Assembly (NCBI GenBank): GCA_019694875.1
Contig: JAIBBC010000002.1
Coordinates: 868,001-932,000, forward strand
DNA length: 64,000 nt
Source: Cyclobacteriaceae bacterium
GTDB taxonomy: Bacteria; Bacteroidota; Bacteroidia; Cytophagales; Cyclobacteriaceae
Direction of reading: 5' to 3'
Shown: one piece after another, positions 2,748 through 53,632 of the stretch
Position numbering within the stretch: position 1 is the stretch's first letter
Layout of the letters: every line of letters begins with the position of its first letter
Translations under genes and position numbers: made by a program
Notes under the pieces: generated by a model
Databases searched by the model: none
What the model was told of the DNA's origin: nothing
The model's input: only the letters and a program-made list of their open reading frames with translations

Positions 2748-4127
2748 TTACAGACCGTATTTTTCGAGCCTGCGGTAGAGCGAAGATCGCGTGAGGCCAA
2801 GTTCGGAAGCTGCCTGCGTGATGTTACCGTTATATTTCTTTAACACCTTGCGGATGAGCAGTTTCTCTACCTCTTCCAGGTTATACTGATCGAGATTGAG
2901 CTGACCGTCTTCACGTTGCGTAACAGGGGCGAAGTTGAAATCTTCCGGTTGCAGTACACTGGTGTTGCTCAAAATCACTGCGCGCTCAATGGCATGCTGC
3001 AGTTCACGGATGTTACCGGGCCATGGATGTTTGTGCATGCGGGTCATGGCGCCTTCGCTGATCTTGTTCACCGACTTATCGTACTTCACGGCATAGTGCT
3101 TCAGAAAATGTGAGGCAAGCAGGGGAATGTCTTCGAGCCGGTCGCGCAACGCAGGAATCTCCACTTCGATGGTGTTGATTCGGTAGAGCAAATCCTGACG
3201 GAAGCGATTCTCTTTCACCATGTCGTATAACGGCATGTTGGTGGCGCAGATCAGGCGGATGTCGATCGGGGTATCTTTGTTCGCGCCCACGCGGCTAACT
3301 TTTCTGTTTTGCAGAACGGTAAGAAGTTTCGCCTGTAACGGCATTGAGAGATTCCCGATTTCATCGAGGAAAAGCGTTCCGCCATTCGCGAGTTCAAATC
3401 TTCCTGCGCGATCTTCCTTCGCATCGGTAAAAGAGCCTTTCTTATGTCCGAAGAGTTCGCTTTCAAAAAGTGTTTCGGTAATTGAACCAAGGTCGACACT
3501 GATAAAATTTTCCGCTTTGCGTGACGAATTGCGGTGTATGGCACGTGCAATCAGCTCTTTCCCGGTACCGTTCTCTCCTAGAATAAGCACGTTCGCATCG
3601 GTTTTGGCGACCCGGTCGATTGTTTGAAAGATTTTCTGCATCGCGCTGCTTTGCCCGATGATTTCGCTGAAGCGATCATTCAGCGCCTGATTGATCTCGT
3701 GGTTTTTTATTTTCAGGTTCTGTACTTCATCGCGCGATTCGCGCAATCGCATGGCAGAGAACAGCGTGGCTAATAGCTTCTCATTTTCCCAGGGCTTCAG
3801 CACAAAGTCGGTTGCTCCGGCTTTGATAGCTTTCACCGCCATCTGTACGTCACCATAAGCTGTGATGAGCACAACTACGGATGACGGGTCGAATTGAAGA
3901 ATTTTTTCAAGCCAGTAATAGCCTTCACTTCCGCTGCTCACATCTTTTGTGAAGTTCATGTCAAGCAGAATTACATCGTAATCTTCGTTGTTCATCAACG
4001 CGGGAATGGCTTCGGGATTCTTCTCAATGTCAACCTGGGAGAAGTGACGTTTCAGGAACATCTTTGCTGCTTTCAGCAAGTCTTCGTTATCGTCAACAAT
4101 GAGAATTTTACCGTGTTTTTGTTCCAT
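2748..4127 (-). CDS. Sigma-54-dependent response regulator (NtrC family)
   Basis: This 459-residue enhancer-binding protein has three parts. The receiver domain (1-120) has acidic residues D12/D13, phospho-acceptor D56 and K111. The AAA+ domain has Walker A GENGTGKE (184-191), GSFTDA at 231-236 in the place of the sigma-54-contacting GAFTGA loop, Walker B TLFLDEIG (251-258) and sensor FRQDLLYRIN (about 309-318). A Fis-type helix-turn-helix occupies about 434-456. The GSFTDA variant is close to the GAFTDA form common in Bacteroidota and compatible with sigma-54 activation. It is divergent from the HlyD gene, and the intergenic region holds a pair of dyads and a sigma-54-like element. I therefore infer that it activates the efflux genes 4392-14022. 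Confidence 0.93.
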   Translation of the reverse strand: MEQKHGKILIVDDNEDLLKAAKMFLKRHFSQVDIEKNPEAIPALMNNEDYDVILLDMNFTKDVSSGSEGYYWLEKILQFDPSSVVVLITAYGDVQMAVKAIKAGATDFVLKPWENEKLLATLFSAMRLRESRDEVQNLKIKNHEINQALNDRFSEIIGQSSAMQKIFQTIDRVAKTDANVLILGENGTGKELIARAIHRNSSRKAENFISVDLGSITETLFESELFGHKKGSFTDAKEDRAGRFELANGGTLFLDEIGNLSMPLQAKLLTVLQNRKVSRVGANKDTPIDIRLICATNMPLYDMVKENRFRQDLLYRINTIEVEIPALRDRLEDIPLLASHFLKHYAVKYDKSVNKISEGAMTRMHKHPWPGNIRELQHAIERAVILSNTSVLQPEDFNFAPVTQREDGQLNLDQYNLEEVEKLLIRKVLKKYNGNITQAASELGLTRSSLYRRLEKYGL

Positions 4128-4233
4128 GATCGATCAAATATGTCCGCTGGTGGGCAAAACTGATACCGAAAGCCAACACATTACAATTTGGCTGGAAAAT
4201 GCAGAATTCAATTAAAAATCGCCTTCTGAACGT

Positions 4234-4267
4234 GTCCGGTAGCGAACATTTACGTTCACATCTGAAC
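4234..4267 (+). promoter_or_regulatory. Tandem dyads (candidate enhancer) upstream of the efflux adaptor gene
   Basis: Two sites of the form GTTC-N6-GAAC lie exactly 20 bp apart. One is at 4234-4247 (GTCCGGTAGCGAAC, one mismatch) and one at 4254-4267 (GTTCACATCTGAAC, perfect). The second extends to a 7-bp arm, ACGTTCA/TGAACGT, at 4252-4269, and another half-site TGAACGT lies at 4227-4233. The proximal dyad centre is about 63 bp upstream of the GG of a sigma-54-like element, a suitable distance for an NtrC-type activator. The same arrangement recurs at 6501-6534. Confidence 0.6.
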
Positions 4268-4320
4268 GTGAATTAGCGGGAATTGCTGCTGAAAAGGCAT
4301 CAAAGCGACTGTAAACCCAC

Positions 4321-4338
4321 TTGGCACACTTGTTGGCA
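4321..4338 (+). promoter_or_regulatory. Candidate sigma-54 promoter for the HlyD/ABC operon
   Basis: The sequence TTGGCAC-N5-TTGGC fits the -24 half of the sigma-54 consensus (TGGCAC) perfectly. The -12 half reads TTGG instead of TTGC, with GC displaced by one base. It predicts a start about 45 bases before the HlyD ATG at 4392. Support comes from the divergent sigma-54-type activator gene and the tandem dyads upstream. Confidence 0.55.
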
Positions 4339-4391
4339 ACACCCGAGCGATTCGCAAACGAAAGAATCACCCAGATACTTAGACAAACAGA

Positions 4392-5645
4392 ATGGATAAG
4401 CAACTCAAGAAGAAAAAATGGACTTTAAAGCGTATCGCGCTCTATGGCGGTATCGCTGCTTTTGTATTATTTATCGCTTACCAGTTTTTACTAGGTGACA
4501 GGCGTCCGACTTTAGTAATTGAAAAAGATAAGATCACGATTGCAACCGTTGGTCGTGGTATTTTCCAGGATTACATCCCGCAAACGGGAACGGTTGAGCC
4601 AAGCCGTACGGTATACCTGGATGCCGTGGAAGGAGGTACCATCAAACGGATAGTCGCGGAAAGCGGTGCCATGCTGAAAAAGGGTGATGTGATCATGGAG
4701 CTGACTAACCTGAACCGTGAACTCACAGTTCTCCAGCAGGAAGCTTCGTTCAACGAAAGTATTAACCGTGCCCGTGAAACGCGACTGAACATCATGCGGA
4801 ACGACTTGGAACAACGTCAAACGTTAGCAACCATTCAAAATCAACTTGACATTTTTGAGCCTCAATATCTCCGTCAGAAGCAACTTTTTGAAAAGAAGTT
4901 GATCTCTAAGCAGGAATACGAGCAAACGAAGGCCAACTATGAATTTAACAAGAAGCGCATGCAGATCACTTACGAAGTTTATCGTGCAGACTCGGTAGAT
5001 CGCATCCGTCAATTGAAGTTTACAGCTGAATCAGAGCGTAAAATGATGACCAGTTTGGACGGGCTTTCCAAAATTCTCGACAACCTCACAATCCGCGCCC
5101 CAATCGATGGTCAGCTCGCCAGACCTCAGCTGGAAGTGGGTCAGAACATCAACCAAGGGCAGCGATTAGGCCAGGTCGATATTCTCGGCAGCTTTAAAGT
5201 TCGCGTGGAAATCGATGAAATTTACCTGCCCCGCATACAAACCGGATTAAAAGCTACCACCACATACAACAATAAGGATTATGTGTTGTCTATTACATAC
5301 GTGTATCCGGATGTTGCCGCTGGCGGACGGTTTGCGGTTGATATGAACTTTGTTGGGGAAACTCCTCCGGGAATCCGCAGAGGTCAGTCGCTTCGCTTGC
5401 GCATCGAATTAGGCCAGTCGTCTGAAGAGTTGTTGCTTGCTGTAGGCGGCTTCTATAAGGATACAGGCGGTAACTGGGTCTTTGTTCTTGACGAAAGCGG
5501 TAACAAAGCTGTGAAACGTAACGTCAAACTCGGTAGAAAGAACACCGAAAACTTCGAAGTGCTGGAAGGCCTGAAGCCGGGAGACAAGGTAATTACCTCA
5601 TCCTATGAGAATTTCGGGAATAATGAGGTGCTGATTTTGAAGTAA
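4392..5645 (+). CDS. HlyD-family periplasmic adaptor of an ABC efflux system
   Basis: This 417-residue membrane-fusion protein should link an inner-membrane ABC pump to the periplasm or outer membrane. A basic N-terminus is followed by one membrane anchor (about residues 14-34). Next come a lipoyl-like half domain (about 65-100, starting GTVEPSRTVYLDAVEGGTI), a long alpha-helical hairpin (about 100-215, rich in Gln, Glu and Arg), the second lipoyl half (TIRAPIDGQLARPQLEVGQNI) and beta-barrel and membrane-proximal domains to the end. It is the first gene after a candidate sigma-54 promoter and lies 100 bases before the ATPase gene. The adaptor family is clear. The exported substrate cannot be read from sequence; peptides, lipids or toxic compounds are all possible. 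Confidence 0.92.
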   Translation: MDKQLKKKKWTLKRIALYGGIAAFVLFIAYQFLLGDRRPTLVIEKDKITIATVGRGIFQDYIPQTGTVEPSRTVYLDAVEGGTIKRIVAESGAMLKKGDVIMELTNLNRELTVLQQEASFNESINRARETRLNIMRNDLEQRQTLATIQNQLDIFEPQYLRQKQLFEKKLISKQEYEQTKANYEFNKKRMQITYEVYRADSVDRIRQLKFTAESERKMMTSLDGLSKILDNLTIRAPIDGQLARPQLEVGQNINQGQRLGQVDILGSFKVRVEIDEIYLPRIQTGLKATTTYNNKDYVLSITYVYPDVAAGGRFAVDMNFVGETPPGIRRGQSLRLRIELGQSSEELLLAVGGFYKDTGGNWVFVLDESGNKAVKRNVKLGRKNTENFEVLEGLKPGDKVITSSYENFGNNEVLILK

Positions 5646-5745
5646 CTGTAACTTTTTCTGAAAAAAGAAGTATAAATTGTTCAGGTATCATACAACCAAT
5701 CAACATAACCACGCATCCACTATCTAACTTGTAAATAAACCAGCC

Positions 5746-6435
5746 ATGATCAAACTTAAAAATCTTGAGAAAGTTTACACTACTGAAGAAGTAGAAACTA
5801 CCGCGCTGAATAATATAAACCTGGAGATCAAAGAAGGCGAATTCGTAGCCATCATGGGTCCTTCAGGTTGCGGTAAATCAACGCTATTGAACATTCTCGG
5901 TCTGTTGGACAATCCTTCAGGCGGTGAATACCACTTTGGTGAGCATGAAGTGGCCAAGTATTCTGAGCGCCAGCGCGCGCAGCTTCGCAAAGGCTCAATT
6001 GGCTTCGTGTTCCAGAGCTTTAACCTGATCGATGAATTAACGGTGTTCGAAAACGTAGAACTTCCGTTGCTGTACATGAAGGTGCCGGCTTCAGAAAGAA
6101 AGCAGCGCGTAGAGGAGGTGCTGGAGCGCATGAACATCATGCACCGCAGGAACCACTTCCCGCAGCAACTCTCGGGTGGTCAGCAGCAGCGCGTTGCGAT
6201 TTCACGTGCCATCGTTGCGAAACCTAAAGTGATCCTGGCCGATGAACCAACTGGTAACCTTGACTCTGCAAATGGTGAAGAAGTAATGAAGCTTCTGTCG
6301 CAATTGAACGAAGAAGGAACAACCATCATCATGGTAACGCACTCACCTTACGATGCAAACTATGCACACCGCATTGTTAACTTGTTTGACGGTAAAGTGG
6401 TTACTGAAAACATCAAAGAACAGTTCCACATTTAA
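5746..6435 (+). CDS. ABC transporter ATP-binding protein (LolD/MacB type)
   Basis: This 229-residue ATPase drives the FtsX-type permeases. All motifs are intact: Walker A GPSGCGKST (38-46), Q-loop VFQSFN (about 88-93), signature LSGGQQQRV (142-150), Walker B VILADEP (162-168), D-loop NLDS and switch His199. Length and the GNLDSANGEEVM segment are those of the MacB/LolD mechanotransmission subfamily, which couples ATP hydrolysis to periplasmic movements rather than classical transmembrane transport. It is the only ATPase gene in the locus, so the three permease genes downstream presumably share it. A strong terminator follows immediately, and the first permease has its own candidate promoter, so ATPase and permease levels may be set separately. 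Confidence 0.95.
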   Translation: MIKLKNLEKVYTTEEVETTALNNINLEIKEGEFVAIMGPSGCGKSTLLNILGLLDNPSGGEYHFGEHEVAKYSERQRAQLRKGSIGFVFQSFNLIDELTVFENVELPLLYMKVPASERKQRVEEVLERMNIMHRRNHFPQQLSGGQQQRVAISRAIVAKPKVILADEPTGNLDSANGEEVMKLLSQLNEEGTTIIMVTHSPYDANYAHRIVNLFDGKVVTENIKEQFHI

Positions 6436-6459
6436 GCAGTAGTTTACAGTTTAGTTAAG

Positions 6460-6488
6460 AACCCTGACGATAGCCGTCAGGGTTTTTT
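6460..6488 (+). terminator. Strong intrinsic terminator after the ABC ATPase gene
   Basis: A perfect 10-bp stem (AACCCTGACG / CGTCAGGGTT) with a 5-nt loop is followed by TTTT within a six-T run. It separates the adaptor-ATPase transcript from the permease genes, which begin after a second candidate sigma-54 promoter. Confidence 0.9.
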
Positions 6489-6500
6489 ATTTCCGGAAAA

Positions 6501-6534
6501 GTTCCGCAGCGAACACCACCGTTCGTATTCGAAC
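6501..6534 (+). promoter_or_regulatory. Tandem dyads (candidate enhancer) upstream of the first FtsX permease
   Basis: Two perfect GTTC-N6-GAAC sites, GTTCCGCAGCGAAC (6501-6514) and GTTCGTATTCGAAC (6521-6534), lie exactly 20 bp apart. This mirrors the pair at 4234-4267. Aligned without gaps, the two 34-base blocks share 23 bases. The proximal site is centred about 61 bp before the GG of the TTGGCA element at 6586. This is the second copy of what looks like the binding site of the divergent NtrC-like regulator. Confidence 0.6.
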
Positions 6535-6585
6535 AACTTAAGGTTCAAAACGTTACGAAAACAAATCGGATTTGAGCTTTCCCGG

Positions 6586-50401: not shown

Positions 50402-53400
50402 CTAAAGAACTACGTTTACGATTTTACCCGGAACGATAATTACTTTCTTGGGCGGCTTGCCTTCACTCCACTTCTGAACGATTTCCGATGCCACCACCAG
50501 CTTCTCGATGTCTTCCTTCGGCATATCTAGTGCGAAGCTCATCTGGGCACGCACTTTTCCGTTGATGGAGATCGGATAGGTAAATGAACTTTCGATCAGA
50601 TACTGTTCATCGTACTGAGGGAACGTTGCATCAAAGACCGTTTCAGTATGCCCCAACTTTTCCCACAGTTCTTCGGCAATGTGTGGGGCAAAAGGGGCGA
50701 GGGTAATAACCAACGGTTCAAGAATGGCACGCTTGTTACACTTCATTGAGCTCAGCTCGTTTGAGCAAATCATAAATTCACTCACGGATGTGTTGAACGA
50801 GAAATTCTCAATGTCGGACTGTACTTTTTTTATCGTCTTGTGCAGAACTTTCCATTCGTCTTTTGTTGGTTCGGCATCCGTAACAGTAAGGTTGCCGGTT
50901 GCATCGTGAAACAGATTCCAGAATCGTCTCAGGAATTTGAATACACCGTCAATGCCTTGTGTGTTCCAGGGTTTGGATTGATCGAGCGGCCCGAGAAACA
51001 TCTCATACATTCTCAGCGTATCGGCACCATAGTCGTTTACAATGTTGTCGGGGTTGACAACGTTGTGCTTCGACTTAGACATTTTTTCGACTTCGCTGCC
51101 AACGATGAATTTATCACCTTCCAAAATGAACTCAGCATTTTTCAAATCATCGCGCCAAGATTTCAATTTTTCAATATCCAGAACATCACCTTCTACGAAT
51201 GAAATATCAACATGCAGGGGTGTAGTGTCATATTGCTTCCGCAGATTGTACGAAACAAATTTGTTCGTTCCGTTAACACGATGCGCAAACTTTGAAACAC
51301 CCTGAATGTGCCCCTGGTTGATTAGTTTTTTAAAGGGCTCTTCCGAATCAACGTACCCCAGGTCTTTTAGTGCCTTGCACCAGAAACGTGAATACAACAA
51401 GTGGCCGGTCGCATGTTCCGATCCGCCAATGTAAAGGTCAACGTCTTTCCAGTAACTGATTGCCTTTTTGCCGGCAAATTCAGTTTCATTTCTCGGGTCC
51501 ATATACCTGAACCAGTACCAGCTCGAGCCGGCCCAGCCGGGCATGGTGGTGAGCTCATACGGGTTTCCTTTGTAGTTCCAGTTTATTGCCCGTCCAAGCG
51601 GTGGTTCACCGGTTTCCGTAGGCTTGTATTCGTTTATCTCCGGCAATGTTACCGGCAAGTCTTTCAAATCGACCAGCTTGGGAATTCCATTCTCATAATA
51701 AACCGGGAATGGTTCGCCCCAGTAACGCTGCCGTCCGAAGATTGCATCGCGCATGCGGTAGTTAATCTTGCGTTTGCCAATCCCCAGTTGCTCAACGCGC
51801 TGTAATGCTTTTTCAATCGCCTCTTTCCAATCCAGTCCGTTTAGAAAATCTGAATTGATCATCTTGCCCGACTTCGGATCGAAGTTGTCTTTCGTGATGT
51901 CGGATGTCGGTCCTTCCAGCACATCGATGATCGGGAGATTAAAATGTTTGGCGAAAGCATAGTCGCGCGTATCGCTCGATGGAACCGCCATTACGGCCCC
52001 GGTTCCGTATCCTGCTAAAACATAATCGGCAATCCAAACCGGAATCTTTGCTCCGTTAAACGGATTGATCGCATACGCTCCGGTAAACGCACCGGTGATG
52101 CGTTTTACTTCCGTCATTCTTTCGCGTTCGCTGCGATTTTTGGCAACCTCAACGTATTTCTCAACTTCTCCTTTTTGTTCCGGTGTCGTGATTTTTGAAA
52201 CAAGTTCATGTTCCGGTGCCAGCACCATAAACGTTACGCCATAGATGGTATCGATGCGTGTGGTGAAGACGGTGATGGCCTCACCCTTGCCCTCTCCGGG
52301 GGATAGGGTACCGTGTTCGGCTTTGATTGACGGAGCTTTTTCTAATGTCGATTTAATTTTTTCGAGCACCTTTTGCAGGTCACCTTTTATCTCATCGTTG
52401 GTAAACCGAATGACTTGAAAGCCGGCTTCGTTCAAAAAGGCAGTACGTGCGTCATCGTATTCAACGTTATTTAAATGATAGTCACCATCGATTTCAATAA
52501 CCGTTCTTCTGTCCAGACAGACGAAATCGGCTATGAAAGTTCCTATGGCGTGCTGTCTCCTGATCTTGTAACCAAGCTTGCTATTGCGCACTTCTTGCCA
52601 AAGAATCCCCTCGCACTCAGTAAAGTAACGCCTGTTTTCTTTGGAGTACTTTTTAAGAACGCTCCAGTAATTTTTTTCTGCAGTCTGGTAGTTTCCTGTT
52701 TTTGCCGAGGCCGCTCCCTTCTCCACCGGAGAAGGGTTGGGGATGAGGCTAAAACTCAGTTCGCACCCGGTAGATTTTCCGATCCAGTTGCGCTGCATTT
52801 CTTTTACCGGCTCGGGCCAGTCGATCGTGTCAAGGCCATTCAGCAACCGTTCTGCATAGGCTGAGATACGCATGCTCCACTGCCACATTTCTTTACGCTC
52901 AACGGGATATCCGCCACGCTCACTCACACCATCCTTTACTTCATCGTTAGAAAGTACTGTTCCCAACGCAGGGCACCAATTCACCATCGTTTCCGAGCGG
53001 TAAGCGATGCGGTACTTCTGTAAAAAAGTTTCTCTCTCTTGTTCGTTAAAGTTCTTCCACTGGTCCGCAGTGATCAGCGGTGTTTCATCGTCACATACGG
53101 CATCCACGTTTCTGTTACCATTCTTCTCCAGTTCGGAGATCAGCTTTTGAATGTCTTCTGTTTTGTCGGTCTTCTTGTTGTAGAAGCTGTTGAACAACTG
53201 TATGAAGATCCACTGCGTCCACTTATAATAAGCCGGGTCGCTGGTTTGCACCTCACGGCTCCAATCGTAGCAAAAGCCGATCTGTCCCAACTGCCGTTTA
53301 TACGTTTCGATGTTAACCCGCGTGGTTTTTTCGGGATGTTGCCCGGTTTGAATGGCATATTGTTCTGCCGGCAAGCCGAACGAATCAAAACCCATCGGGT

Positions 53401-53632
53401 GAAGTACATTAAAACCCTTCAGGCGCTTGTAGCGCGATACAATATCGGTGGCGATGTATCCCAGCGGGTGGCCTACATGCAACCCGGCACCGGAAGGATA
53501 GGGGAACATATCCAGCACATAGTACTTAGGCCGGGGCGAGTCGTTCGACACTTGGTATGTGCCACGTTTTGCCCATTCTGAGCGCCATTTCTCTTCAATT
53601 TTCCTGATCTCTTCTTTACTGTATTCGGCCAT
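50402..53632 (-). CDS. leuS: Leucyl-tRNA synthetase with an in-frame DUF559 insertion
   Basis: This 1076-residue class I synthetase should charge tRNA-Leu. The HIGH motif is HVGH (52-55), KMSKS is at 850-854, and the editing domain begins with ITVFTTRIDTIYGVTFM. Residues 296-451 do not belong to LeuRS: they lie between GKSTGCELSFS and AITVFTTR, at the root of the CP1 editing domain, and encode a DUF559 nuclease-like domain. Without them the protein is about 919 residues, a normal length for the phylum. The frame is kept across both junctions and no stop occurs. No intein motifs are present, so the mature protein should be a fusion. As the only leuS seen here, it is presumably functional. Confidence 0.95.
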   Translation of the reverse strand: MAEYSKEEIRKIEEKWRSEWAKRGTYQVSNDSPRPKYYVLDMFPYPSGAGLHVGHPLGYIATDIVSRYKRLKGFNVLHPMGFDSFGLPAEQYAIQTGQHPEKTTRVNIETYKRQLGQIGFCYDWSREVQTSDPAYYKWTQWIFIQLFNSFYNKKTDKTEDIQKLISELEKNGNRNVDAVCDDETPLITADQWKNFNEQERETFLQKYRIAYRSETMVNWCPALGTVLSNDEVKDGVSERGGYPVERKEMWQWSMRISAYAERLLNGLDTIDWPEPVKEMQRNWIGKSTGCELSFSLIPNPSPVEKGAASAKTGNYQTAEKNYWSVLKKYSKENRRYFTECEGILWQEVRNSKLGYKIRRQHAIGTFIADFVCLDRRTVIEIDGDYHLNNVEYDDARTAFLNEAGFQVIRFTNDEIKGDLQKVLEKIKSTLEKAPSIKAEHGTLSPGEGKGEAITVFTTRIDTIYGVTFMVLAPEHELVSKITTPEQKGEVEKYVEVAKNRSERERMTEVKRITGAFTGAYAINPFNGAKIPVWIADYVLAGYGTGAVMAVPSSDTRDYAFAKHFNLPIIDVLEGPTSDITKDNFDPKSGKMINSDFLNGLDWKEAIEKALQRVEQLGIGKRKINYRMRDAIFGRQRYWGEPFPVYYENGIPKLVDLKDLPVTLPEINEYKPTETGEPPLGRAINWNYKGNPYELTTMPGWAGSSWYWFRYMDPRNETEFAGKKAISYWKDVDLYIGGSEHATGHLLYSRFWCKALKDLGYVDSEEPFKKLINQGHIQGVSKFAHRVNGTNKFVSYNLRKQYDTTPLHVDISFVEGDVLDIEKLKSWRDDLKNAEFILEGDKFIVGSEVEKMSKSKHNVVNPDNIVNDYGADTLRMYEMFLGPLDQSKPWNTQGIDGVFKFLRRFWNLFHDATGNLTVTDAEPTKDEWKVLHKTIKKVQSDIENFSFNTSVSEFMICSNELSSMKCNKRAILEPLVITLAPFAPHIAEELWEKLGHTETVFDATFPQYDEQYLIESSFTYPISINGKVRAQMSFALDMPKEDIEKLVVASEIVQKWSEGKPPKKVIIVPGKIVNVVL
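52290..52308. repeat. Left-end palindrome of the DUF559 cassette
   Basis: CCCTCTCC-GGG-GGATAGGG pairs at seven of eight positions and lies just inside the GCCTCACCC end (52278). It is the mate of the perfect palindrome at the other end. Confidence 0.7.
52716..52736. repeat. Right-end palindrome of the DUF559 cassette
   Basis: CCCTTCTCC-ACC-GGAGAAGGG is a perfect 9-bp palindrome with a 3-nt loop, adjacent to the inverted GCCTCATCC end at 52741-52749. It resembles REP-type dyads. Confidence 0.75.

Follow-up and report, generated by a model that had tools for sequence, protein, structure and literature searches.

The window analysed here, a 64,000-nt stretch of a Cyclobacteriaceae genome (G000), holds a leucyl-tRNA synthetase gene (leuS) with a DUF559 nuclease domain inside its reading frame. 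This raises the question of what the extra segment is, how it came to lie within an essential enzyme, and whether it serves the synthetase or only itself. The gene and the segment are:

50402..53632, minus strand: leuS, the host gene, 1076 codons plus stop in a single uninterrupted reading frame
52278..52749, minus strand: in-frame element with ends GCCTCA...TGAGGC, delimited by comparison with empty and occupied relatives and by the low divergence between G000 and G002

The 1076-aa product scored 927.6 bits against the leuS_bact profile (cut-off 548.4), and no other locus in its own genome exceeded that cut-off. Synthetase, editing and anticodon domains were found in the protein, with DUF559 lying after the NWIGKS strand and before the VFTTR strand, which bears out the claim of an earlier note on this DNA that the nuclease is inserted in frame in LeuRS. 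The limits given in that note, 52278-52749, are those of the terminal inverted repeat, which spans 52749 to 52278; its count of 157 codons became 158 (474 nt, 52277-52750) when alignment to empty relatives set the extra segment at S295-A452. The note had looked to such an alignment for the exact joint and any target duplication; the joint was placed, and by eye no convincing duplication was seen at either of the two LeuRS sites described below. About 8 loop residues (AVEGSTSK) of the empty G009 allele are replaced in the window allele, so the insertion was not clean. The closest match in named records was JAEUUJ010000004.1, a Cyclobacteriaceae metagenome assembly, with an insert 99% identical over the query. 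In a full-length AlphaFold2 model built from 24 sequences (mean pLDDT 72.9, pTM 0.54), the insert was predicted to have secondary structure of its own and to lie between two LeuRS strands, residues 452-457 on one side and, on the other:

52742..52777, minus strand: LeuRS strand, residues 286-297, entering the insert (AlphaFold2 model, moderate confidence)

The features of the nuclease itself are:

52343..52657, minus strand: DUF559 (PF04480) nuclease domain, residues 326-430, 106.5 bits against a cut-off of 20.6, E=8.6e-31
52610..52612, minus strand: nuclease-motif residue E341, matching position identical in 105/105 in-gene copies
52526..52528, minus strand: nuclease-motif residue D369, 105/105 in-gene copies
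52493..52495, minus strand: nuclease-motif residue E380, 105/105 in-gene copies
52487..52489, minus strand: nuclease-motif residue D382, 105/105 in-gene copies
52475..52477, minus strand: nuclease-motif residue H386, 104/105 in-gene copies

The four acidic residues had been named correctly, at the right positions, from the letters of the window; they were nearly invariant in a 24-row LeuRS alignment as well. The dN/dS of the domain was 0.04-0.15 in 12 of 15 pairs, with similar values for the host (the other 3 pairs were saturated and left out), showing, at the level of codon comparison, that the DUF559 domain is under purifying selection. When a profile of 46 copies was compared with solved structures, only 3hrl (2.8e-31) and 3r3p (7.8e-7) were returned at E <= 0.01, and the title of 3r3p is that of the catalytic domain of the homing endonuclease I-Bth0305I. 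An AlphaFold2 model of the insert alone (mean pLDDT 77.5, low confidence at the ends outside DUF559) had a TM score by target of 0.90 with 3hrl and 0.75-0.76 with 3r3p; the match to Vsr was weaker (TM 0.46-0.47, E 0.02-0.03). The predicted structure and the conserved acidic motif place the insert nuclease in the EDxHD/Vsr-like fold. Pfam and NCBIfam scans found DUF559 as the sole domain of the 158-residue insert, with no extra DNA-binding region. Against the PADLOC defence models, the insert had weak matches to AbiO (E 0.0015) and Nhi (E 0.0083), and the whole 1076-aa protein had no match. Purifying selection and intact motif residues speak in favour of a domain recruited to give LeuRS an extra function, such as nucleic-acid cleavage or the gauging of DNA damage, which the earlier note had put forward as one of two readings.

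No stop codon was found inside the insert, and there was no sign that it is spliced out. Pfam and NCBIfam scans of the leuS product revealed no intein domain; the joint reads GEA-ITV, with no C-terminal Asn and no nucleophile, and the first insert residue happens to be Ser. The lack of intein splice residues recorded in the note was thus confirmed. Over leuS, no Rfam match to a group I or II intron or to any other structured RNA was obtained up to E=1. As far as sequence tells, the insert stays in the protein unspliced. The paired ends could bring the flanks together, as would suit removal of the segment by an undescribed process at the RNA or protein level, or its bypassing by the ribosome; the empty scans and the joint argue against this, and so does a frame that is open through both ends and linkers, which removal would not require. 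We consider removal very improbable. As the note had also read, no Met codon occurs in the window insert, and the open frame and the absence of Met fit its claim that the nuclease would be made only as part of LeuRS. Alternative starts are present in frame (GTG at 303, 348 and 422; TTG at 400), so internal initiation is possible. In 62 of 105 in-gene copies an in-frame Met was found in the stretch from 40 residues ahead of the domain to its first motif residue, so some of these could be produced as separate proteins.

Fifty LeuRS sequences from 99 genomes were aligned, comprising 30 returned loci and 20 picked for long or broken frames; since the set was chosen partly in this way, carrier frequencies are not readable from it. 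The nuclease was present at the root of the CP1 editing domain in 4 of the 50 (G000, the window genome; G002; G015; and G084, of another family) and at a second site, in the catalytic domain, in 3 (G007, G008 and G079). On a LeuRS tree of the 50 rows built without the insert columns, the carriers were scattered, with at least 4 changes for nuclease-bearing CP1-site alleles, and the empty G009 was sister to the carrier G002 (SH-aLRT 94). This is not the pattern that the note had named for a family domain, that is, vertical inheritance at one site in all relatives; the patchy tree, together with the many host genes described below, supports its other reading, a selfish cassette protected by its host gene. 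The LeuRS of G079 also had a nuclease-free palindromic insert of ~30 aa at the CP1 site, and short palindromic remnants were recognized by eye in four other LeuRS, those of G012 and G039 (CP1 site) and those of G001 and G010 (second site); all four are read as putative in-frame scars after loss. The G015 copy, at the CP1 site, was closer to second-site copies (identity 0.70 and 0.68 to G007 and G008) than to the window copy (0.63), and the window copy was about equally close to second-site copies (0.64) and to G015 (0.63). These values suggest that the nuclease may change place within leuS inside one genus; the nuclease tree did not settle the order of CP1-site and second-site copies.

Several further observations were made in LeuRS. 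The L264 frame (4029-6548) apparently has two DUF559 inserts, one at the CP1 site and one downstream near the contig end. In L009, L043 and L014 the nuclease-free LeuRS turn can hold AT-rich, repeat-like sequence, e.g. AATTAACAATTCACAATTAACAATT, as if the CP1 turn collected several kinds of repeat. A third insertion region lies before KMSKS, with 105 extra residues in L045 and 93 in L010; the L045 insert had a weak DUF559 match (E 3.5e-9) and is perhaps a decayed copy.

The strongest single fact came from the comparison of G000 with G002. Their inserts differed at 14 of 474 bases, when the lowest value in any 474-nt host window was 53. Third-position divergence was 6.3% in the insert and 40.8% in the host; synonymous divergence was 0.082 in the nuclease and 0.627 in the host. 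This contrast rules out that the window copy was simply inherited from an ancestor shared with G002, and shows a recent transfer or conversion at this site with the insert at its centre, for which the nuclease is the putative driver. The first 60 nt downstream had 3 differences against a host mean of 11.5 (a mean that includes a poorly aligned stretch) and the first 60 nt upstream had 5 against 9.1; this small effect hints at co-conversion of the flanks. Low divergence around the insert would also result, without nuclease action, if a leuS fragment had recombined between species in the ordinary way. Among 129 same-site pairs with host identity above 60%, the nuclease was more alike than the host in 13, and G000/G002 was the only pair with a nuclease excess above 7 points; in the other 116 the nuclease was less alike than the host, as expected of old or vertically inherited copies. 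The likeness of the G000 and G002 inserts is not contamination, because both flanks are diverged. An artefact of assembly or binning might be suspected in that many named records are metagenome assemblies and that one LeuRS copy (L186), in a one-contig genome listed as 94% complete, is frameshifted. Against it stand the divergence of the host sequence that flanks a nearly identical insert on either side and the in-frame internal copies in strain-titled records that bear no metagenome label (Daejeonella sp. H1SJ63, Flavobacterium difficile, Winogradskyella sediminis, Maribacter luteus and Gillisia marina), and we give this explanation almost no weight.

Surveys beyond leuS ruled out a one-off LeuRS fusion, since DUF559 was found in many host genes. 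In the genus, 26 matches were obtained in 14 of 17 genomes, and in the class DUF559 was present in 65 of 119 genomes, where, among the part of the matches that was listed, the 47 with an open frame of at least 300 aa and not yet covered in full were examined together with 60 loci of the shorter-frame ones. Among named genomes, 80 loci with a total of 82 copies were found; 62 of these copies were internal, a proportion that is no frequency, the query having been built from in-gene copies. Judged by the names in the record titles, the loci belong to Cytophagales, Chitinophagales, Sphingobacteriales, Flavobacteriales and Bacteroidales, and some of the copies come from cultured isolates. A viral scan returned 68 loci, the best with 43% identity to the first row of the query. 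With "internal" defined as a stop-to-stop frame of at least 100 aa on each side, we counted 105 distinct internal copies in about 36 site clusters, so the search for other in-frame host genes that the note had proposed was productive. Two clusters were in LeuRS (32 copies at the CP1 root, 11 at the second site) and nearly all remaining copies were in other hosts: RecG (8), MetH (6 and 6), AcsA (4), methylmalonyl-CoA mutase (4) and IleRS (3), followed by three clusters of 2 copies and 25 singletons; the number of sites is approximate, as at least one LeuRS copy (L283) came out of the clustering as a singleton.

Host kinds beyond LeuRS numbered 18. Representatives were named with Pfam and NCBIfam, and the other copies by host similarity or by eye. 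The hosts included MetH, HsdR, RecG, AcsA, RecJ, MutS, ValRS, MetRS and Ham1 as well as a CoA-transferase, methylmalonyl-CoA mutase, an M23 peptidase, a GH31 glycosidase, a 7TMR-DISM/SpoIIE protein, and Eco57I and type ISP restriction enzymes; a TsaD-family protein (TsaB by eye) and a class I synthetase (IleRS by eye) were identified partly by eye. Recruitment for a LeuRS function is disfavoured because DUF559 lies inside these 18 other kinds of host, many of them unrelated; presence is also patchy within one genus, and remnants read as scars after loss, so that we regard recruitment as improbable. That the element moves, lies in frame and has made its home in many hosts is strongly supported by these sequence comparisons.

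The relationships of the copies pointed to ties within sites as well as between them. With L007 excluded, 44 of 104 copies had a same-site nearest neighbour, compared with a mean of 11.7 and a maximum of 23 in shuffles, and the remaining 60 had theirs at another site; this indicates persistence or homing within sites together with movement from one site to another. A nuclease tree of 139 copies had a group of 41 rows (SH-aLRT 88) with 40 inside genes and with 37 of the 45 internal copies in the tree, against 8 internal among the 98 rows outside it (Fisher p 2e-21, a post hoc value from non-independent rows); the group was defined after seeing the tree, which rests on a short domain of 118 columns. 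The other members of the group are L118 (near a gene start), L122 (cut by a contig end), L186 (the frameshifted LeuRS) and L210 (intergenic). Most in-gene copies share, by eye, a lead resembling Y-x-T-A-[DS] and have no stop. Eight RecG copies (the flavobacterial L228, L236, L242, L246, L248, L249 and L294, and L120) have one common insertion site, and for 7 of the 8 the nearest neighbour was at the RecG site.

Copies at the starts of genes and stand-alone copies were observed as well. In the same genus, palindrome-coded linkers join DUF559 ORFs in frame to the N-terminal end of several other gene products: to an amidohydrolase (HutF-like by eye) in L058, L059 and L062, to a SpoU/TrmH-type methylase in L061 and L073, to QueG in L066, L067 and L075, and in L080 to a partner below the cut-off of a MocA-type family. 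Four of these nine hosts were scanned with profiles and the rest named by eye, and all nine fusions fall outside the 41-row in-gene group. In L210 and L272, DUF559 lies just upstream of, or is fused to the start of, genes that are RecQ-like by eye. L161, from a one-contig genome, has a tandem pair of stand-alone DUF559 genes that are almost identical and lie each between palindromic repeats; the pair may be a recent duplication.

Both ends of the window insert are imperfect inverted palindromes, and the reading frame is open through them:

52716..52749, minus strand: 5' terminal repeat with internal palindrome CCCTTCTCC-GGT-GGAGAAGGG, translated LIPNPSPVEKG; similar ends in other genomes of the order
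52716..52736, minus strand: hairpin with a 9-bp stem inside the 5' end, z -1.93, 8/200 shuffles as good
52278..52308, minus strand: 3' terminal repeat, a degenerate palindrome read from the sequence, translated TLSPGEGKGEA

The 3' end folded no better than its shuffles (113/200 as good). Inverted repeats around the domain were above the 99th percentile of 920 control windows, taken elsewhere in the same loci, in 26 of 46 in-gene copies, and above the control maximum in 13 of 46; the window copy, with a score of 10.0, was over the control median (8.0) and under the 99th percentile (12.5). A first test with cross-pairs of copies as the control, in which 12 of 46 internal copies were above its 95% level, was dropped because the copies share motifs. 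In a DNA search of 390 genomes of the order, in which scoring, for the rows shown, was confined to the two best first-look candidates of each genome, the only full-length match to the insert among the 41 listed was the insert itself; 35 of the 41 span just its first 35-51 bases, the palindromic end, and 5 span parts of the nuclease. At one locus with a palindromic-end match, two palindrome copies were seen by eye ~560 bases apart.

The 35 matches to the palindromic end alone and the nuclease-free insert of G079 at the same LeuRS site would also suit a passive palindromic repeat of the REP or MITE type that a transposase or recombination moves in trans and that carries the nuclease as cargo, e.g. 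for defence or mismatch repair. REP elements inside ORFs are known, according to the available part of PMC3733652. Against a passive repeat, the motif residues E, D, E and D are conserved in all copies, most internal copies fall in the one tree group described above, and the exact palindrome pattern occurs in its own genome at the leuS insert only. We judge a passive repeat unlikely, with a better claim than recruitment. Compared with what defines MITEs, Rickettsia palindromic elements (RPEs) and REPs, inverted ends were found in those 26 of 46 copies, which do not include the window copy; a nuclease is carried, and target duplication was not seen.

Known systems resemble the insert in parts. 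As in the EDxHD homing endonucleases (I-Bth0305I, 3r3p), it has a related nuclease core, sits inside conserved genes and has undergone one recent same-site transfer; 3r3p is named as a mobile intron protein, whereas the LeuRS insert lies in no intron and its nuclease is encoded within the host's own frame. EDxHD enzymes are described, in the accessible text of PMC3943268, with an extended DNA-binding region, in contrast to the compact domain of the LeuRS insert. Stand-alone Vsr-like proteins of DUF559/COG2852 (3hrl; VsrA of Caulobacter) share the Pfam family and the motif residues; they are free proteins, whereas most in-gene copies form a tree group of their own. VsrA is functionally linked to a cytosine methyltransferase in an excerpt of PMC12907096, and a cyanobacterial DUF559 gene is assigned to the EDxHD homing family in an excerpt of PMC9403480. 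Inteins with a homing endonuclease are likewise in frame in essential conserved genes, patchy and homing-like; however, inteins splice, and with no splicing domain or splice residues found in the LeuRS insert its product would stay joined. RPEs and intragenic REPs place palindromic DNA in frame in housekeeping genes (sections of PMC10969869 and PMC3733652), RPEs being short, about 150 bp, in the former. REPtrons (RAYT with REP) have a nuclease gene flanked by palindromic repeats, as outlined in a portion of PMC3733652. The RAYT of REPtrons is a tyrosine transposase, unlike the DUF559 nuclease of the LeuRS insert. To our knowledge, RPEs and intragenic REPs encode no nuclease and RAYTs are not carried inside host ORFs.

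The segment is probably a mobile element, a homing-type endonuclease of the DUF559/EDxHD type between translatable palindromic ends, persisting as a tolerated loop. It would persist at the CP1 root turn of LeuRS, a loop that may tolerate a compact extra domain. The nuclease, made as part of LeuRS, would cut uninserted alleles, and recombinational repair would copy the element and a little flank, that is, homing. Its palindromic ends would allow rarer jumps to new sites. In essential genes only in-frame, sense, loop-tolerated insertions would survive, and deletion of the element would leave short in-frame scars. As in a homing element, we found occupied and empty (G009) alleles with one clear recent same-site transfer, G000/G002, for which recombination without homing is also possible. 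Homing by the nuclease would be the best-supported mechanism. On balance, and with less assurance, we lean towards the wider reading that such elements occur phylum-wide, as unspliced in-frame loops in essential genes that would carry a homing-type nuclease expressed by the host, spread by homing and palindrome-linked jumps, and add loops to proteins through in-frame scars.

A nuclease of homing-endonuclease fold was found in aminoacyl-tRNA synthetases, methionine synthase and DNA repair enzymes, recurrently, at the same sites and with no sign of splicing. Association with self-splicing elements is said, in the part of a review available (PMC3943268), to free homing endonucleases to invade highly conserved genes. 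We found no description of unspliced in-frame nuclease elements in essential genes in searches of an open-access collection, most subscription papers lying outside that scope. The nuclease elements in many core Bacteroidota genes seem to represent an as yet undescribed lifestyle of selfish DNA. If the element homes, selfish nucleases would have a further way to inhabit essential genes; core enzymes would gain new domains directly from them, and the occupied sites would mark places in essential proteins where nature has already proven that an insertion works.
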